Virus record (IMG/VR): IMGVR_UViG_3300047274_000187
Span: 1 to 21,891 of that record
Strand: one strand, 5' to 3'
Source: a virus
Length of the DNA: 21,891 nucleotides
The notes beneath the pieces were generated by a model. That model was not told the origin of the DNA. It made no database searches and was given only the letters and a program-made list of their open reading frames with translations. The position numbers were made by a program, and so were the translations under genes. Shown piece after piece: positions 492-21,838 of this stretch (its first letter is position 1; every line of letters starts with the position of its first letter).

Positions 492-2771
492 TTATCGGAC
501 TGAGAATCCAGTCTGATTCACCTTAACTCCCATGTAAAATGCTCTGCCATTACCGCCTAAGGTGATGTCCTTACGCTTGAGCTTATGGGTGAGTTCCTTG
601 ATTGACCACTTAGCGGCCTCAGTTTCACCCTCATCTCGGCAGAACGTGATGAATGCGTTGTAGAAGTCTCTCTTGCTAACCTTGTTGGTCGTAGCAACTT
701 CACACTCATCATCAAGGAACCGTTGGAGAATGTCCTCTTCACCACGGTACTCTTTGTTTGCTTGCTCGATCTCTGCGATTCTTGGCAGACCCGACTTGTA
801 CCAGAGGACTGCACCGGCAACAGCCCATGCAAGAATACCCTCAAGCTCTTCCTTAAAGTCAGCCATAATCTCGCTCATTGGCTTACGGTCCTCAGGTGCG
901 ATGAAAGCGTTGAACGGAATCACACGCAGTCTGCGCCAGATACCCTCATCACTACCTTGAATCTTTGGCTTGTGATTACCAGCAACCCAAATCGTGTGAC
1001 TTGGTTGGAACTCGAACGGTGAACCGTACAAGTGTCTCGCAGTGATAGTACCACCGCCGGTAATGTCCTTAACCAAGGACTCATTGAGCTTACGATTCTC
1101 AGGCATCTCACTGGCCATAGCCATACGCATTCCCGGGAGACTTGCTACGTAAGGAGTAGCATTGTTTGAGACCTCGTGGTTGAGCAACGCATTCACGTCA
1201 GTGGTTACGTAGTACTCAGTCATCAACAGTCTCATCGCCTCAAGGAACGTGCTCTTACCGTTAGCACCTACACCGTACATGAAGAACAGACAGTGCTCAT
1301 CGGTGCTCCCAGTAATCGTGTACCCAACTGCACGTTGGATAAAGTCTATCAAGTTGTTGTTGCCCATGAAGATGGTGTTCAGGAATGAATCCCACTTCGG
1401 AGCAGGGGTCATGCTGTTGAACTCGATGTCAGTCAACTTGGTAATGAAGTAGCTGGGGTTGTGTGGCATCAGGGTACCGGTGCGAAGATCAATCACACCG
1501 TTTGCTACGTTGAGCAGGTGTGCATGAGTATCAAAGATCTCTGAACTCTTCGTTAAGTACGGCTTAGCGGAAGCAATCATTGAGTTAATCCGATTGAGTG
1601 ACTCTGATTGCTCAGCCCATCTCAGTACCTTCTCACGGTCTGACTTGTCGGACTCTTGGCTGATTTCGTCGTAGATGCTCAACGCGACTTGGTGGGCCAA
1701 CTTGACCACACCCGACTCATCACCCTTTCTCCAACGCTTACCGTCCCATACCAACCATGCTCTCCACTCTGCTACCCAAATCAACCGACTCTCACAAGCG
1801 TCTACCAAACGGAGGCCGTTACCCATGTCAGTCAAGTGGTACTTCTTACCAGTGTTGTTTACTGCGATTGCGTTCATCTCTTTAGTTACCTTTTTAGTGT
1901 TGTATTCAGACAAGTTAATGGGTGCCTGTAACCCGTATTCAAGGCCGTCGCTGATAGCACGATATTCTCTTGGGTGGTTATCAGCCGGAATCATGGCGTT
2001 GTAAAGTAAGTCAACCGCCTCATCATCAGTCATCGTCTCGTACCCGATGTCACGGAATGCTTGAAGCACACCGCCCATCAGTCTCCCTGCTTTAATTCTC
2101 GTTGCATGTTTCTGTCCATCTTGTGCATTTTCCATCACAGAAATTGCTCTAAGCGTCAGTGTTTGATACAAGGCATCATAGGAGCCATCTTGTACATTCA
2201 GTGCAGTAGCATTAATCGTAGGGGCAGTAGCGAGCATTGTAGGAGTTGGCTTTTTCTCTGCATTGATCAAGTCAATTGCTTCGTCGATTGCAGTTTGAAT
2301 GTTTCTGATTTCAGTTAAGTCATTGTCAACAAAGTCTTCAGTGTAGGTCAAGTAACGGCCAATGTAGTACATCTCGAGCTTGTCATTACCGATCTTGGTG
2401 TTGTAGTTCTTGTTCAGGTCAGCATAGCCGAGAATGTGAAGTCCTTTACCGCTTGGGCTAATCTCTGTGTAACTGTTGGCCAGCGACATCAGGTGTTTCG
2501 CAAGACCACTGCGGCGAAGTTCATCACCAACCTCAGTCAATGAACTATCTAAGTCAATACCTACCAAACCATCACCAGTCAGGACCAGTCCAACACCCTT
2601 CCAACCGTACCGCTGTTTCGCAGTCATGGCCTCAGCATACGTACCCCAAGTCTCTGGGTCTGTTGACTTTGCCGTACCACCGGTCAGTGGGTTCATTGGG
2701 ACTTTCTCGTTACCGTTAATCGTTGTGTAACCTACCCATCTCTTTTCCATCTTAAGTTCTGCTACCGTCAT
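492..2771 (-). CDS. Primase-polymerase / SF3 helicase replication protein
   Basis: A 759-aa multidomain replication protein. Residues about 10-190 form an archaeo-eukaryotic-type primase/PrimPol domain: the metal motif GIDLD (D73, D75), SPSGKGLHI (H112) and a KLEMYYIGRY segment. The middle shows a D5_N-type region. The C-terminal half is an SF3 (D5/P4-type) helicase: Walker A GVGANGKST (500-508), SEMPE Walker B region (near 554-558), motif C VAGNHKP (596-602) and arginine pair R613/R614, followed by a winged-helix tail. NrS-1-type phages use this architecture. The start is the ATG at 2771, seven bases after AAGGAG; an upstream in-frame ATG at 2837 lies inside the leader element and lacks a site. 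It is the only replication enzyme seen, so it probably unwinds the origin and primes, while the host polymerase may extend. Confidence 0.93.
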   Translation of the reverse strand: MTVAELKMEKRWVGYTTINGNEKVPMNPLTGGTAKSTDPETWGTYAEAMTAKQRYGWKGVGLVLTGDGLVGIDLDSSLTEVGDELRRSGLAKHLMSLANSYTEISPSGKGLHILGYADLNKNYNTKIGNDKLEMYYIGRYLTYTEDFVDNDLTEIRNIQTAIDEAIDLINAEKKPTPTMLATAPTINATALNVQDGSYDALYQTLTLRAISVMENAQDGQKHATRIKAGRLMGGVLQAFRDIGYETMTDDEAVDLLYNAMIPADNHPREYRAISDGLEYGLQAPINLSEYNTKKVTKEMNAIAVNNTGKKYHLTDMGNGLRLVDACESRLIWVAEWRAWLVWDGKRWRKGDESGVVKLAHQVALSIYDEISQESDKSDREKVLRWAEQSESLNRINSMIASAKPYLTKSSEIFDTHAHLLNVANGVIDLRTGTLMPHNPSYFITKLTDIEFNSMTPAPKWDSFLNTIFMGNNNLIDFIQRAVGYTITGSTDEHCLFFMYGVGANGKSTFLEAMRLLMTEYYVTTDVNALLNHEVSNNATPYVASLPGMRMAMASEMPENRKLNESLVKDITGGGTITARHLYGSPFEFQPSHTIWVAGNHKPKIQGSDEGIWRRLRVIPFNAFIAPEDRKPMSEIMADFKEELEGILAWAVAGAVLWYKSGLPRIAEIEQANKEYRGEEDILQRFLDDECEVATTNKVSKRDFYNAFITFCRDEGETEAAKWSIKELTHKLKRKDITLGGNGRAFYMGVKVNQTGFSVR

Positions 2772-2803
2772 TGTTTTTCTCCTTAAAGAAATTTTTGTTT
2801 CGA

Positions 2804-2853
2804 AGAGGTCTGAAAAATTTACCTCTCTACTATACACCTTATTTATTTGTCAC
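2804..2853 (-). promoter_or_regulatory. Early leader element copy A (primase-proximal)
   Basis: In transcript sense: GTGACA (2853-2848), 13 nt, TATAGT (2834-2829), then AGAGAGG, a U-rich loop, and a 3' arm. The arms 2821-2826 and 2804-2809 pair over 6 bp (AGAGGU/ACCUCU). The base of the hairpin is 32 nt before the primase ATG. It shares spacing and a nearly identical sequence with copy B. It is probably the promoter plus 5' stem-loop of the primase transcript. Confidence 0.65.
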
Positions 2854-2862
2854 CCTATTTCA

Positions 2863-2913
2863 AGAGAGCTGTGAAAAAATATCTCTCTACTAATAGCACT
2901 ATTAATTTGTCAC
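2863..2913 (-). promoter_or_regulatory. Early leader element copy C (tandem, upstream of copy A)
   Basis: GTGACA (2913-2908), 13 nt, ATTAGT (2894-2889), AGAGAGA, a U-rich loop (AUAUUUUUUCACAG) and a 6-bp stem (2883-2888 with 2863-2868). It starts directly after the HNH stop codon (TAAGTGACA). It gives the primase gene two tandem copies and hence possibly two start sites. Confidence 0.6.
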
Positions 2914-3471
2914 TTACTCGCCCCAACGGTCAAGTTGAGCGAACATACCAGAAAAGTACACTGGGCGAAACTCTTTGCGAGGTTCGATACCGTGTTCATT
3001 CATGTGGCATTGTTGACAGATCGGGGTGATGTTGTACTCTGAAAGTTTCTTGCGGTTCTTGCCGTTAAGGCTGGGGTGTAGGATGTTTTCGTGACCTCTA
3101 CCAAGTCTACCGTAGGCCAGTGAAGCAGTCTCACCGTGGTGATGTGCTTGTGTAGCGTTTCGTTCACCACACTTACTGCAAACAAAGTCGGCATCCATCA
3201 AGCATTGATTTCTCGTGTAGGCCCATTCGATCGAACGATAGTACTCATTTCTCTTGAACTTCCACATCTCTCTCAACTCTCGGTCAGCACTGTTGGGCTT
3301 AGTCAGTCTCTTAAACGTACCGCCCTTCTCGTGTTGTTCTACCCACCCTGCTTGTCTGATGTACTCTCGCCAATCTTTTCTGCATGGTTGATTGATGATC
3401 ATCAGGTAAAGCTCTTGTTGGAGTGTCTCGCACTCCTCTCTTGTCATGTCGTATGTCGCATGGTACTCCAT
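2914..3471 (-). CDS. HNH endonuclease
   Basis: A 185-aa protein with an HNH nuclease domain in its C-terminal half. Zinc knuckle C98-x2-C101 is followed by the His cluster H110-H112, the HEN segment near 127-129, and a second knuckle C152-x2-C155 with H160. The N-terminal ~90 residues are charged and probably bind DNA. HNH proteins nick or cut DNA and occur in phages as free-standing homing nucleases or as packaging helpers. Here it is far from the terminase and next to the replication gene, which favours a homing or replication-associated role. The start at 3471 follows GGAGAACTAAAGAA. A hairpin leader (3517-3549) precedes it, and copy C of the leader element begins directly after its stop. 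Confidence 0.85.
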   Translation of the reverse strand: MEYHATYDMTREECETLQQELYLMIINQPCRKDWREYIRQAGWVEQHEKGGTFKRLTKPNSADRELREMWKFKRNEYYRSIEWAYTRNQCLMDADFVCSKCGERNATQAHHHGETASLAYGRLGRGHENILHPSLNGKNRKKLSEYNITPICQQCHMNEHGIEPRKEFRPVYFSGMFAQLDRWGE

Positions 3472-3516
3472 TTCTTTAGTTCTCCATTTTAGGTAAGGTA
3501 TTTTTTATTTTGTTAG

Positions 3517-3549
3517 ACGAGGGTACAGCGGGAATTGTTGCACCCTCGT
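3517..3549 (-). promoter_or_regulatory. Hairpin in the leader of the HNH gene
   Basis: An 8-bp perfect stem (ACGAGGGT/ACCCTCGT) with a 17-nt loop lies between the 94-aa gene and the HNH gene. An A-rich stretch rather than a T-run follows on the transcribed strand, so it does not look like an intrinsic terminator. It may be a stabilising or processing structure. Confidence 0.45.
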
Positions 3550-3561
3550 TTCACTTGTGTG

Positions 3562-3846
3562 TTATGGGACTTGCGGGAAGTCCTGTGAGACAAACTCTAA
3601 TTGGTCTAAGTCTTCTTGAAAGGCCTCAAGCGGTATCGGTACTCGCGTTAAGTGAACTACTCGGGCGTGTACCTCAGTTGCAGTGGTGTACCACTCAGAC
3701 CGTATTGGTGAGAAGAACTCGTTACTGATTTGAGTAACCAACCAGAACTTCTCGTAAGCACTAATCACTACTCGTTCTCCGCAGTTACCATCAACTACGT
3801 CAACTGCCAATCGTGGGCGATCGGTGAACACTCTTTGTACTACCAT
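3562..3846 (-). CDS. Hypothetical 94-aa protein
   Basis: Unrecognised small soluble protein beginning MVVQRVFTDRPRL, with mixed beta-like sequence and a Pro/acidic C-terminus. I chose the ATG at 3846, which overlaps the stop of the 227-aa gene by 7 bp and follows AGGAGG at 13 nt. A longer in-frame ATG at 3891 would add 15 residues, but its GAGG lies only one base from the codon. Gene overlap implies translational coupling with the 227-aa gene. Nothing in the sequence indicates a function beyond membership of the early cluster. Confidence 0.6.
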   Translation of the reverse strand: MVVQRVFTDRPRLAVDVVDGNCGERVVISAYEKFWLVTQISNEFFSPIRSEWYTTATEVHARVVHLTRVPIPLEAFQEDLDQLEFVSQDFPQVP

Positions 3847-4523
3847 ACTCTGCCTAAGTCCTCCTGCGTTGTTCTTGCGTATGCTTGCCATTCCTCAGTC
3901 TCGTCGAACAATCGGAAACCTTCTCGCATAAGTGCATTACCTACGAAGAGTTTCTCTTGCTCCTCGGGCGTTGCCTTTTCTTGAGGAACTAACTGCGGTG
4001 GGGTTGCGTTGATGCCTTGTTTGCTTGGAGTGTACAGGACACTTCCATCAGGATTGATCGGTGCTCGTAAGTGCATCCAGTAGGCCCATGAGGGTAGTAC
4101 TGCGTCTCTCACGTTGCGCTTATGCTGTATCAACAGACCGTTGTAGCGGTCAGTGAATGCTGAACCAGTGAAACCCTTTAAGTTAAGGGTAACCAGACCG
4201 TCGTAACCATCCATGAAACAAAGGAGTTCGGTGTAGTAGCGGTAGCCCTTACCACCTCGCTCATGTCGGTCAATCCACACAATCTTGCGCTGGCCATTGA
4301 CCGTCTCTTCCGTGAATGCTTGCGAACGTCTGCGAATAACCGCCAACTTGAGTTCCGATACTTGGTAACCCTCATCGTAGCGGTTGAGTTGGACTGGCTT
4401 CCAAGGATCGACCAAGTACCCGAACTCCTTCTGTGTAGTGTAGAAGTAACCGTTCGTGCCTTGCTCGTAGATTCCATTGTGCCACCAAAGTCGTGGGTAG
4501 TATTTCTGTTGTGTTTGTGTCAT
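3840..4523 (-). CDS. Hypothetical 227-aa aromatic-rich early protein
   Basis: Not recognised with confidence. It is very rich in Trp and Tyr (for example KYYPRLWWHNG at the N-terminus and SWAYWMHLRAP near residue 145) and carries basic patches in the first 90 residues. It sits in the replication cluster, 10 bp after the 71-aa membrane protein gene. The start at 4523 follows AAGGAGAAGAAC. The aromatic and basic composition and the position beside the primase would suit a single-strand DNA-binding or replication accessory protein, but I see no OB-fold motif, and its last residues (GRVW) are not the acidic tail of bacterial SSB. That role is inference only. Confidence 0.7.
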   Translation of the reverse strand: MTQTQQKYYPRLWWHNGIYEQGTNGYFYTTQKEFGYLVDPWKPVQLNRYDEGYQVSELKLAVIRRRSQAFTEETVNGQRKIVWIDRHERGGKGYRYYTELLCFMDGYDGLVTLNLKGFTGSAFTDRYNGLLIQHKRNVRDAVLPSWAYWMHLRAPINPDGSVLYTPSKQGINATPPQLVPQEKATPEEQEKLFVGNALMREGFRLFDETEEWQAYARTTQEDLGRVW

Positions 4524-4533
4524 GTTCTTCTCC

Positions 4534-4749
4534 TTAGAAAGTCATTAAGATAATAGCAGTAATGAGTACTGCGAAAGTTACGGTGTTAATTGCGACCAAT
4601 CTGCGAACCATTACGGTTTGCTCCTTAATCTTTGCTCTGAAGTACTTGGCTTGAATCTCTAACAACTGCACATCATGGCTTAAGCCACGAACCGTTGTGT
4701 TCTCAGTCTGTACTCTTACTAATTCCTTTTCAAGTTCGGTCATGTTCAT
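4534..4749 (-). CDS. Early small membrane protein, coiled coil plus C-terminal anchor
   Basis: A 71-aa protein. Residues 1-45 are helical and heptad-like with many Glu, Lys and Leu; residues about 50-70 (LVAINTVTFAVLITAIILM) form one membrane segment at the C-terminus. This topology resembles XhlA-type proteins, and the phage has a separate XhlA-like protein in its lysis cluster (19928-20155). The gene is early rather than late, so a superinfection-exclusion, antiholin or replication-tethering role is possible. ATG at 4749 follows AGGAGAAATGAT; a second Met two codons later could also serve. It is the first gene after leader element B (26 nt). Confidence 0.72.
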   Translation of the reverse strand: MNMTELEKELVRVQTENTTVRGLSHDVQLLEIQAKYFRAKIKEQTVMVRRLVAINTVTFAVLITAIILMTF

Positions 4750-4775
4750 ATCATTTCTCCTGTTTTGTTTGAATC

Positions 4776-4830
4776 AGTAGAGAGGCTTGAAAAATTTACC
4801 TCTCTACTATATACCTTATTTATTTGTCAC
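4776..4830 (-). promoter_or_regulatory. Early leader element copy B, longest hairpin
   Basis: GTGACA (4830-4825), 13 nt, TATAGT (4811-4806), AGAGAGG. The arms AGTAGAGAGG and CCTCTCTACT (4799-4808 and 4776-4785) form a perfect 10-bp inverted repeat around a 13-nt U-rich loop. The hairpin base is 26 nt before the ATG of the membrane protein. The stem reaches back into the hexamer, so a DNA operator is an alternative to an RNA leader. Confidence 0.68.
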
Positions 4831-4836
4831 TTGGTT

Positions 4837-5019
4837 TTACGAGGTCTTTGATGAGCGAATACCACCGTTTTCATCAAGCCAGACTTCCATCTCGCCGTAG
4901 TCATCGGGGTTGATACCCTTCCAGATCTCGTGGGTCATCGTGCCTTCCTCAGTTTCTACTGAAATCATCAACTTATCTCCGTTGACTTCCCATTGAATGA
5001 TGATTAACTGTTCTTCCAT
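4837..5019 (-). CDS. Hypothetical 60-aa acidic early protein
   Basis: Small acidic protein (14 Asp/Glu against 4 Lys/Arg) beginning MEEQLIIIQWEV, with alternating hydrophobic residues that suggest a small beta fold. I do not recognise it. The ATG at 5019 follows AAGGAGAACGACA; a start nine codons earlier lies in the leader hairpin region and lacks a site. It has its own leader element (copy D) and is followed by copy B, so it may be a single-gene early unit. Acidic early phage proteins often act on host enzymes or mimic DNA, but nothing specific can be claimed here. Confidence 0.68.
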   Translation of the reverse strand: MEEQLIIIQWEVNGDKLMISVETEEGTMTHEIWKGINPDDYGEMEVWLDENGGIRSSKTS

Positions 5020-5044
5020 TGTCGTTCTCCTTAGTTTTAGTTTC

Positions 5045-5094
5045 ATGAGAGGATTTTTTTTTCTCTCTCACTACTGTCTAAAATATTTTGTCAC
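5045..5094 (-). promoter_or_regulatory. Early leader element copy D
   Basis: GTGACA (5094-5089), 13 nt, AGTAGT (5075-5070), GAGAGAG, an A-rich loop (unlike the U-rich loops of other copies) and the 3' arm. GUGAGAG (5071-5065) pairs with CUCUCAU (5051-5045) over 7 bp including one G-U wobble. The hairpin base is 25 nt from the ATG of the 60-aa protein. Confidence 0.58.
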
Positions 5095-5136
5095 TTAGTG
5101 GCCATCCACGGTCATTTAGGGCATTCTCTAATAAAC

Positions 5137-5177
5137 TGGGGTAGTTACAGGTACTGTATGAGTACGAAAATCCCCCA
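5137..5177 (-). repeat. Nested inverted repeats between two early genes
   Basis: An outer 5-bp pair TGGGG/CCCCA (5137-5141 with 5173-5177) encloses an inner 5-bp hairpin GTACT-GTATG-AGTAC (5151-5165). It lies just below the stop of the 84-aa gene and above leader element D, so it could be a weak terminator or 3' end structure. There is no clear T-run. Confidence 0.3.
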
Positions 5178-5191
5178 AAATACTATGAATT

Positions 5192-5446
5192 CTAATAATT
5201 CTCTAATGTTTGACTTGGGTCAATGAACGCGACTTTCTCTTTCTCGAACTCAGCCCGGACCACTTTATCATTCTCAACTTCCATTCTTACTACCAGTGAG
5301 TAGGGAATTGTCTCGCCATCCTCAGTCCAGTAGTCCCATGTGTCTGCTACAACCAGTTCGTTCTCATCCTTTGCATCAGGGTAGAGGAAGAACACGATCT
5401 CCGCAGTATCTGGGTCAATCATCACACGTAATCTTACTTCAGCCAT
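5192..5446 (-). CDS. Hypothetical 84-aa acidic protein, first early gene
   Basis: Unrecognised acidic protein (about 21 Asp/Glu against 8 Lys/Arg) beginning MAEVRLRVMIDPDT, with short hydrophobic strands separated by acidic turns and no membrane segment. The ATG at 5446 follows CTAGGAGAAACAAA; an earlier in-frame ATG at 5515 lies inside leader element E and is unlikely. It is the first gene after the origin-like module and is preceded by three leader elements (F, G, E), so it is probably the earliest and most strongly expressed gene. A host-takeover role is plausible but unproven. Confidence 0.7.
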   Translation of the reverse strand: MAEVRLRVMIDPDTAEIVFFLYPDAKDENELVVADTWDYWTEDGETIPYSLVVRMEVENDKVVRAEFEKEKVAFIDPSQTLENY

Positions 5447-5476
5447 TTTGTTTCTCCTAGTTTGTTTTGAGTTAAT

Positions 5477-5526
5477 GAGAGAGTGAAAAAATACCCCCTC
5501 TACTATTAGCACCATTAAGTTGTCAG
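5477..5526 (-). promoter_or_regulatory. Early leader element copy E, with wobble-supported stem
   Basis: CTGACA (5526-5521), 13 nt, AATAGT (5507-5502), AGAGGGG. The arms GAGGGGGU (5500-5493) and ACUCUCUC (5484-5477) pair over all 8 positions in the transcript, two of them as G-U. As DNA these positions are mismatches, so pairing is kept only in minus-strand RNA. The hairpin base is 30 nt before the ATG of the 84-aa gene. Confidence 0.63.
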
Positions 5527-5580
5527 TTTTTGTGTCACTGAGTAAACCCAGTGCAACTACTCCCTAGTTTTCGGTGTTTT

Positions 5581-5632
5581 GAGGTCTTATTATAAAATAA
5601 TCCCTATATTATAATAACCTATTTTGTGACAG
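5581..5632 (-). promoter_or_regulatory. Early leader element copy G (divergent)
   Basis: CTGTCA (5632-5627), 13 nt, TATAAT (5613-5608), ATAGGGA, an AT-rich hairpin (AUUAU-UUU-AUAAU) and a distal GACCUC that matches the 3' arm of copies A and F. The hexamer is a perfect sigma70 -10, but the upstream box keeps the unusual 13-nt spacing. It is a weaker copy without its own gene, between F and E. Confidence 0.45.
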
Positions 5633-5654
5633 TTGCTCTTTCGCAGTGTTTTTG

Positions 5655-5705
5655 AGAGGTCTGTGAAAAAATATCCCTCTATTATTATCACCTATTTTTA
5701 TACAC
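5655..5705 (-). promoter_or_regulatory. Early leader element copy F (most upstream)
   Basis: GTGTAT (5705-5700), 13 nt, AATAAT (5686-5681), AGAGGGA, loop AUAUUUUUUCACAGA (almost the same as copy C) and a 5-bp stem AGAGG/CCUCU (5676-5680 with 5655-5659). It lies next to iteron module B, so transcription from it would leave the origin region into the early genes. Confidence 0.5.
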
Positions 5706-5736: not shown

Positions 5737-5898
5737 AAATGCGATTAATGCGATTTTTCAGTCAAGAATGTGATTCTCTACCCCATTTTTGAAACTTTTT
5801 CTTGAATAGGCCTCATGAGAAAAGTTTATGAAAATGGGGGTAAGAATCGCATTATTCACATTGAGAATCGCATTATTGATATGTTGATGACTGAAAAA
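5737..5898. repeat. Iteron/palindrome module B, second candidate origin
   Basis: This is part of the 505-bp gene-free stretch 5447-5951, which otherwise holds leader elements E-G and a terminator. Iterons AATGCGATT lie at 5738-5746 and 5747-5755, a variant GAATGTGATTCTC at 5766-5778, and inverse copies at 5844-5853 and 5863-5874. Between them two nested stems form: CCCCATTTT (5781-5789) with AAAATGGGG (5831-5839), and AAACTTTT (5792-5799) with AAAAGTTT (5820-5827). An 11-bp inverted repeat TTTTTCAGTCA/TGACTGAAAAA (5754-5764 and 5888-5898) brackets most of the module. Order and sequence match module A closely, so they are related copies of one functional site. Confidence 0.7.
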
Positions 5899-5902
5899 AG
5901 GG

Positions 5903-5937
5903 CAAAAAAGAAGAACACCCCGATTGCTCAGGGTGTT
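5903..5937 (-). terminator. Intrinsic terminator of the late operon
   Basis: In transcript sense the stem AACACCC-TGAGCAATCG-GGGTGTT (5937-5914) is followed by CTTCTTTTTT (5912-5903). It lies 14 bp below the stop of the last late gene and before iteron module B. It would end the structural transcript before the origin region. On the plus strand only a short T-run follows, so it is mainly one-directional. Confidence 0.85.
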
Positions 5938-20531: not shown

Positions 20532-21080
20532 TTAATATCTTGATGCTAGGTCAGCACGGACTTTGTTCATGTCGATTTGCTTACCCGGACATGTCTTCTT
20601 ACTCGGTGCTTCTCTGTGGCCAATCACTGACTCTTTGCTTGGTACAATACCACGCCATCTCAGTAATGACAGAGTAACGCCGTAGACTAATTCTTGTTGT
20701 TCAGGCGACCATGGCTTAAGGTCGAAGTTACCTACAACCTCAATACCCCATGACTTGCGGTTCCACTCGTAACCAGCATGAATGCCAGTCTCGTTTAGCG
20801 CAGTCATCTGCCAGATACCATCGTGATTAGGATTCTTCGAACCAACTGCTAAGAACAAGTGTGGCCCGGAATCCCATTCAAGTTGTTTGTGGTAGTAGTT
20901 CTTAATCGCAGTCATTGTCATTGGTCCGTTCCAAGTGTCCTCGGTTGGTCTCCATGTGTGATGAATGACTACTCCCTCAGCCCAGCTTGCTATGTTTGGG
21001 TCATGGAGTGATAAGTGTTTAGCAAACGCCTCGACTGTTGGCCAATGCCGTAAGTCCCAGCGGAAGTGTGTCTCTGTCAT
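20532..21080 (-). CDS. N-acetylmuramoyl-L-alanine amidase (endolysin)
   Basis: A 182-aa Amidase_2/PGRP-type zinc enzyme that cleaves the bond between muramic acid and L-alanine in peptidoglycan. Motifs: VVIHHTW with zinc ligand H40, GPHLFLA near 72, HAGYEWNRKSWGIEVVGNFD near 101-120, and VIGHREAPSKKTCPG with H155 and C164 and a lysine two before the cysteine as in T7 lysozyme. It is essentially a single catalytic domain without a separate wall-binding region. TAATG overlap with the 252-aa gene couples their translation. Holin and XhlA-like genes follow after one gene. Confidence 0.93.
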   Translation of the reverse strand: MTETHFRWDLRHWPTVEAFAKHLSLHDPNIASWAEGVVIHHTWRPTEDTWNGPMTMTAIKNYYHKQLEWDSGPHLFLAVGSKNPNHDGIWQMTALNETGIHAGYEWNRKSWGIEVVGNFDLKPWSPEQQELVYGVTLSLLRWRGIVPSKESVIGHREAPSKKTCPGKQIDMNKVRADLASRY

Positions 21081-21838
21081 TATTCATTCTCCTCTACACC
21101 ACTCCAAGACTTGAGTGTGAACTCGTACTCAGACTTTGTTGAGTACCGTGTGTGATGTTTCATGTTGTTGAGTGCTTCAGTGAGTTGTTTGGCCAGTGTC
21201 TGCGGGTCTCTTACGTAGAAGATGTCCGATGAGTTCTTACCAAGTGGTACTTGTGCACCAAGCTTTCTCTCAGTCCACCAGTCAACTACTGTCATCACTA
21301 CGCCTTCAGTGTCAATGAGTTCGCCGTTACCGTTAATCTCAAACACCTCATCAGCGATCTTGGTGACTGTGCGTCTCTCTCCGTTGTAGTTTAGTACTAT
21401 CGTTGAGGGTACTTCGTGACTACCTATCACTACCTCGCGTTTCTGTACTGAGTACTGAACCCACGGTCTGCGTAAGTAGATGCGGTCAACTTTCAGTAGC
21501 TCAGTCTCGTACTTCTGTAGGTACTGTTGTGAGATTGTGTACTGAAGGTCCTCGAGGTGGTCAGTGCCCTGCAGTCCGTGATACCGGAATTCAAGATCCC
21601 AGAACGATTGCACTTCACTAAACACATGACCATTCTTAGTAATCATTATTCGTACAATCAACTCGTAGCGAGTAAGCGTCACTGGTGATAGCACATCAGC
21701 AAGATAGGCACTGTAACTCTTGGTCTGTGGCCCATACTTTTCAGCATAGGCCTTGTCAAGATCGAGTACAGTAAACGGTGGTTCAGGTTTCTCAACCACA
21801 GGGATAACGGGCAGGGGTTTCTTCCAAAAGTTCATCAT
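21080..21838 (-). CDS. Hypothetical 252-aa late protein before the lysin
   Basis: Not recognised. A Pro/Lys-rich N-terminus (residues 5-22, alternating with Val and Glu) precedes about 220 residues of mixed alpha/beta sequence with many aromatic residues (EVQSFWDLEFRYHGLQ, DRIYLRRPWVQYSV, VVMTVVDWWTERK) and a charged C-terminus. No signal peptide or membrane helix is seen. The gene comes second in the late operon and is TAATG-coupled to the amidase, so it may belong to the lysis or virion programme. Its first 78 bases appear again at the window start. Start follows AAGGAGAAACTGAACT. Confidence 0.72.
   Translation of the reverse strand: MMNFWKKPLPVIPVVEKPEPPFTVLDLDKAYAEKYGPQTKSYSAYLADVLSPVTLTRYELIVRIMITKNGHVFSEVQSFWDLEFRYHGLQGTDHLEDLQYTISQQYLQKYETELLKVDRIYLRRPWVQYSVQKREVVIGSHEVPSTIVLNYNGERRTVTKIADEVFEINGNGELIDTEGVVMTVVDWWTERKLGAQVPLGKNSSDIFYVRDPQTLAKQLTEALNNMKHHTRYSTKSEYEFTLKSWSGVEENE

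Follow-up and report, generated by a model that had tools for sequence, protein, structure and literature searches.

The question raised by this locus is how a phage with no canonical promoter scoring 10/12 or better starts its early genes, and whether a short element repeated seven times in its early region could do so. The window, the whole stretch of DNA analysed here, corresponds to one viral record and is 21,891 nt long. It is proposed, at a probability of roughly one half, that the repeat serves this phage as an early promoter-leader cassette of its own, which would be read by the host polymerase and would carry a leader hairpin.

Genome context

The ends of the window repeat over 131 nt at 99%, so the record is probably a complete genome of ~21.76 kb. 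The genes recognised are on the minus strand; the early part encodes small orphan proteins besides a D5-type primase-helicase and an HNH endonuclease, and the late module is syntenic and of siphovirus type (terminase, portal, capsid, tail, amidase). The features needed below are as follows.

492..2771, minus strand: D5-type primase-helicase of 759 aa, the early gene downstream of tandem copies B and A
2914..3471, minus strand: HNH endonuclease-like early gene
4534..4749, minus strand: 71-aa early protein, downstream of copy C
4837..5019, minus strand: 60-aa early protein, downstream of copy D; no homologue in the relative contigs examined
5192..5446, minus strand: 84-aa early protein, downstream of copy E; no homologue in the relative contigs examined
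5914..5937, minus strand: strong intrinsic terminator at the end of the late operon

No phage record was matched by megablast of the window, and the nearest relatives are ~100 IMG/VR contigs whose terminases are 58-69% identical. A host search with a terminase profile against 84,980 species genomes yielded no relative, and neither did an exact-peptide search of viral contigs with a 227-aa early protein, for which tblastn found 35% homologues in the relative contigs. The IMG sample numbers suggest a phage of freshwater type. Two AATGCGATT/AATCGCATT repeat arrays (320-460 and 5738-5880), mutually inverted and 5.4 kb apart, bracket the early region, an arrangement reminiscent of P4-type primase replicons with their paired replication sites.

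A constrained element in seven copies

The copies, named A to G, are all on the minus strand and are placed by the first base of box 1 in plus-strand coordinates.

2803..2853, minus strand: copy A, GTGACA (2848-2853), 13 nt, TATAGT (2829-2834), AGAGAGGT/ACCTCTT stem; 32 nt before the primase start (2771)
2863..2913, minus strand: copy B, GTGACA-N13-ATTAGT with the stem AGAGAG/CTCTCT; directly adjoins the HNH gene's stop codon, in tandem with A
4776..4830, minus strand: copy C, GTGACA-N13-TATAGT, 11-pair stem in a 34-nt fold; upstream of the 71-aa gene (start 4749) and its operon
5045..5094, minus strand: copy D, GTGACA-N13-AGTAGT, TGAGAG/CTCTCA stem with an A-run loop; upstream of the 60-aa gene (start 5019)
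5477..5526, minus strand: copy E, CTGACA-N13-AATAGT, 8-pair stem including two G-U pairs; upstream of the 84-aa gene (start 5446)
5581..5632, minus strand: copy G (start about 5632), decayed, best register CTGTCA-N13-TATAAT with an AGGG...CCT hairpin
5654..5705, minus strand: copy F, degenerate GTGTAT-N13-AATAAT, AGAGG/CCTCT stem

The original prediction of one common element with an exact 13-nt spacing is borne out: self-BLAST pairs A with C (E = 3e-15) and B with E (E = 1.5e-6), a repeat family of five copies of 60 nt is present, and the alignment of A-F needs no gaps between GTGACA and the end of the pyrimidine arm. In pairwise comparisons of A-F, mean identity is highest in the two boxes (0.78 in box 1 and 0.76 in box 2) and lower in the spacer (0.53), purine arm (0.60), loop (0.48) and pyrimidine arm (0.37), against 0.29 in the upstream and 0.30 in the downstream flank; a profile in which the boxes stand so far above the flanks indicates a constrained element rather than a recent duplication. 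Copy G, which had been described as keeping the spacing with a poorer box, is paired with F by BLAST as a tandem duplicate and fits the A-F boxes poorly; it does keep N13, but in its best register box 2 is a perfect TATAAT and box 1 reads CTGTCA.

Copies A, C, D and E lie at the predicted 25-32 nt from the start codon, and the late arc is free of copies as had been claimed: in a leave-one-out position weight matrix search (32 columns, 43,782 positions) no non-copy position equals A, B, C, E or F; a single non-copy site scores as high as D. Separately, TCGAGA-N13-TAAAAT followed by ACTGAGAGAAG occurs at 310-339 on the minus strand, ahead of the gene at 290; it is possibly an eighth, very weak copy and could start the late unit.

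The spacing was also examined by shuffling. Two loosely defined boxes at N13 alone give four minus-strand sites where shuffles average 2.0 and 156 of 1000 reach four, so that this count does not exceed chance, whereas box 1, N13, box 2 and the purine run together occur at five sites against a mean of 0.015 and a maximum of 1 in 1000 shuffles. The 13-nt spacing is thus a property of one conserved element and no separate signal.

A candidate early promoter

The late operon ends at the terminator (5937-5914) and the first early gene starts at 5446, so early transcription must restart downstream of the terminator and before 5446. No sigma-70 site of at least 9/12 at a spacing of 16-18 nt lies in this interval, and the best box pairs near a gene start after the terminator are those of G (10/12) and E (9/12), both at N13. 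Over the whole window there is no -35/-10 site of at least 10/12 at 16-18 nt, whereas every relative contig scanned has at least one, several of them ahead of the first early gene. We infer that the absent canonical promoter and the seven copies are likely two sides of one replacement.

In the proposed arrangement, each early transcription unit would be preceded by a single cassette or by tandem ones. Box 2 (NATAGT/TATAAT) would serve as the -10 where the host RNA polymerase melts the DNA, with box 1 then at about -31 to -26. Final-T hexamers near TATAAT are found in A and C (TATAGT), F (AATAAT) and G (TATAAT); the match is weaker in B, D and E, copy D having a poor -10, and a -35 near TTGACA at 16-18 bp is lacking. 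Membership in a known promoter family is not established. Box 1 (GTGACA, extending into AAATNAATA), which ends 13 bp upstream, would substitute for the -35. Since free sigma-70 does not span 13 bp well, box 1 would most likely be contacted by an extra factor, either a phage activator or an altered sigma region 4, and such factor-dependent reading is plausible. No MotA/AsiA-like protein or other regulator was recognised when the small early proteins were compared with Pfam and PHROGs, a search that divergent factors could escape; single-sequence AlphaFold models of two orphan early proteins (mean pLDDT 57.8 and 36) were too poor to use. What stands of the predicted early promoter-like leader is that it is repeated, occurs in the early region alone and precedes every early unit; promoter function is likely rather than proven. 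The original reading held 13 nt to be too short for sigma70 and yet fixed; N13 is a putative promoter spacing.

The copies might instead be ordinary host sigma-70 promoters acting through an AT-rich or extended -10, with GTGACA as an upstream accessory site and the 13-nt spacing without meaning. The TGn that precedes the -10-like box in B (TGC-TATTAG), E (TGC-TAATAG) and F (TGA-TAATAA) speaks for such a reading, as do the perfect TATAAT of G and the use of GTGACA as a -35 at N18 in two relatives (G001 and G007). It does not account for A, C and D, which are without TG, nor for box 1, whose conservation like that of box 2 (0.78 vs 0.76, with the spacer at 0.53) marks it as constrained, and on balance we hold it to be unlikely, at around one chance in four.

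The inverted repeat

Every copy folds into a stem whose 5' arm directly follows box 2. The fold z-scores of the seven copies range from -0.45 to -5.35 (Stouffer combination about -7.6), so that the hairpin is supported by the copies collectively. The 3' arm is near background in identity (0.37) and yet complementary to the 5' arm in A-F, a compensatory double change from A-T to G-C separates B from F at position 5 (a single case), and two G-U pairs occur in the stem of E. Together these features favour conservation of pairing rather than of sequence, although six copies are too few to separate RNA from DNA symmetry firmly. A search of Rfam returned sub-threshold microRNA-family noise only.

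Within the promoter-leader cassette, the AGAGAGG...CCTCTCT repeat would form a hairpin in the leader, some 15-20 nt upstream of the Shine-Dalgarno sequence. With sigma-70, RNA would be expected to start ~7 nt beyond box 2, within the purine arm, and most of the hairpin would be lost from that RNA; promoter and full 5' hairpin are therefore not easily combined, and the two halves of the interpretation are in tension. The full hairpin would be present in read-through RNA from upstream copies, or at the 5' end if the start is at the first purines.

In related genomes, repeated hairpins lie exactly between the stop codon and the Shine-Dalgarno sequence of early genes, on contigs L063 (G002), G029, L158 (G033), L157 (G036), L061 (G001) and L162 (G026), with five copies in G002, three in G029 and four in G033. 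In most of these genomes the arms have a sequence of their own: GCGCCCCAC...GTGGGGCGC is common to G002 and G029, G033 has GGCCGGTC...GATCGGCC, and in G036 the arms GGTGCCAG...CTGGCACC vary together. These hairpins make a leader-hairpin role plausible in the window. They also lend weight to a purely post-transcriptional reading, in which one long early transcript would carry intercistronic hairpins that stabilise, process or regulate the RNA and the boxes would be part of the RNA motif, and the stem kept despite changes in its 3' arm agrees with that. However, the hairpins of the relatives have no conserved box ahead of them, while the boxes are the best conserved part of the element in the window; moreover, the element stands in tandem (B-A and F-G-E), with F and G not directly ahead of any gene. 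We therefore regard this reading as improbable, with perhaps a one-in-five chance.

It has also to be considered that the inverted repeat, spanning the start site from about -6 to +20, is an operator array that binds a repressor dimer and shuts off the early genes. Measured from box 2, the centre of the dyad hardly moves among A, B, C, E and F (pair sums 27-28), and dyads lie inside the canonical early promoters of relatives: TTGACA-N17-TATACT in G002, G006, G007 and G029, TTTACA-N17-TATAAT in G033 and TTGACA-N17-TATATT in G036. The register is nevertheless shifted in D (pair sum 24), the half-sites are unequally conserved (0.60 vs 0.37), and no repressor gene was recognised in the Pfam and PHROGs scans of the small early proteins; an operator array is accordingly doubtful, to about the same degree as the RNA motif. 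A promoter for a single-subunit RNA polymerase, such as that of SP6, which contains GTGACACTATAG, was considered and set aside, as the spacing differs and no polymerase was recognised in the subset of window proteins scanned against Pfam and PHROGs.

Promoter elements of related phages

No homologue of the window element was found in about 100 related contigs. The original prediction had taken the loss of the 13-nt spacing in relatives to count against it; that spacing is indeed absent there, but so is the whole element, and a different, likewise short spacing (N7) is fixed at their late genes. The late element of this clade, TTGACR-N7-KAYAAT, has 57 distinct sites at spacing seven and at most five at any other spacing from 3 to 23, and of its 34 groups below 75% identity, 24 are followed by a Shine-Dalgarno sequence and ATG, mostly 14-24 nt downstream. 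One copy precedes the first late gene and another the capsid gene (for example L096:6951, 13000; L085:7471, 13518; G006 26999, 20959, minus strand in G006), sometimes inside the upstream ORF and often followed by AAGTAGRGGAGG and ATG. Spacing seven equals 17 minus ten, about one helical turn. A search of the window for this element gave no intact copy. Orphan proteins of 64 and 252 aa (96-290 and 21080-21838) stand at the head of its late unit, where relatives have the N7 element and another gene order.

A broader proposal, which we put forward tentatively and consider rather unlikely, is that this phage group reprograms host RNA polymerase through promoter classes of fixed short spacing, N13 early here and N7 late in the relatives, with a phage factor replacing the sigma -35 contact at spacings barred to sigma-70 alone. 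A homology between the window element and the late element through TGACA-N16-AGTAG was considered; it was post hoc, the -10-like box is placed differently, and it is not claimed.

If the elements of the window are promoters, their short fixed spacing implies that box 1 is read by something besides free sigma-70. This would be a new way of redirecting host transcription in small tailed phages of an abundant freshwater-type group, and the difference between this phage, with N13 early and no N7, and its relatives, with N17 early and N7 late, would mean that promoter classes have been replaced within the lineage.

Comparison with known systems

When 2.9 million viral contigs were scanned for the exact pattern GTGACA-N14-ATAGTAGAG, 22 stretches matched, none of them in related contigs; the best match, two copies in a 178-kb record, was rejected, being canonical promoters with GTGACATAAT as their -10 region. 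The literature on short-spacer phage promoters and hairpin leaders offered nothing closer than the systems compared here.

The canonical sigma-70 early promoters of the relatives likewise stand ahead of early genes, and GTGACA serves as -35 in two of them, as noted above; they differ in a spacer of 16-18 nt, in few copies per genome and in a dyad between the boxes, whereas the window dyad lies downstream. The late element of the clade shares a fixed non-sigma70 spacing and a TGACA 16 nt before AGTAG, but its -10-like box is 7 nt from box 1, and it is found at late genes and without a hairpin.

The SAS/ESAS elements of Cluster K mycobacteriophages are repeated, carry an inverted repeat, occur near the starts of non-structural genes only and have a repeat that differs between relatives (PMC3203893). 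The window element resembles them in its inverted repeat, variable spacer and restriction to non-structural genes. However, SAS is asymmetric, 13 bp long and set 3-7 bp from the start codon, and it includes the ribosome site (PMC3203893), whereas the window copies have -35/-10-like boxes and lie 25-32 nt away. Pairing is kept in the window element, while the ESAS authors argue against hairpins (PMC3203893).

In T4 middle promoters, a MotA box lies 12 +/- 1 bp upstream of the -10, corresponding to -35 to -26 at a 13-bp gap (PMC2988021). The element of the window shares with them a box that would take the place of the -35, with 12-13 bp between its end and a sigma-70 -10 (13 bp in A-G), a short fixed spacing and many copies per phage (PMC2988021). 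It differs in its box, GTGACA and not TGCTT (consensus TGCTTtA), and in its downstream hairpin. The position of box 1 is thus that of the MotA box, which fits sigma appropriation, while its sequence does not. By its anatomy the element is like a promoter of this type, with which it is compared but to which it is not assigned.
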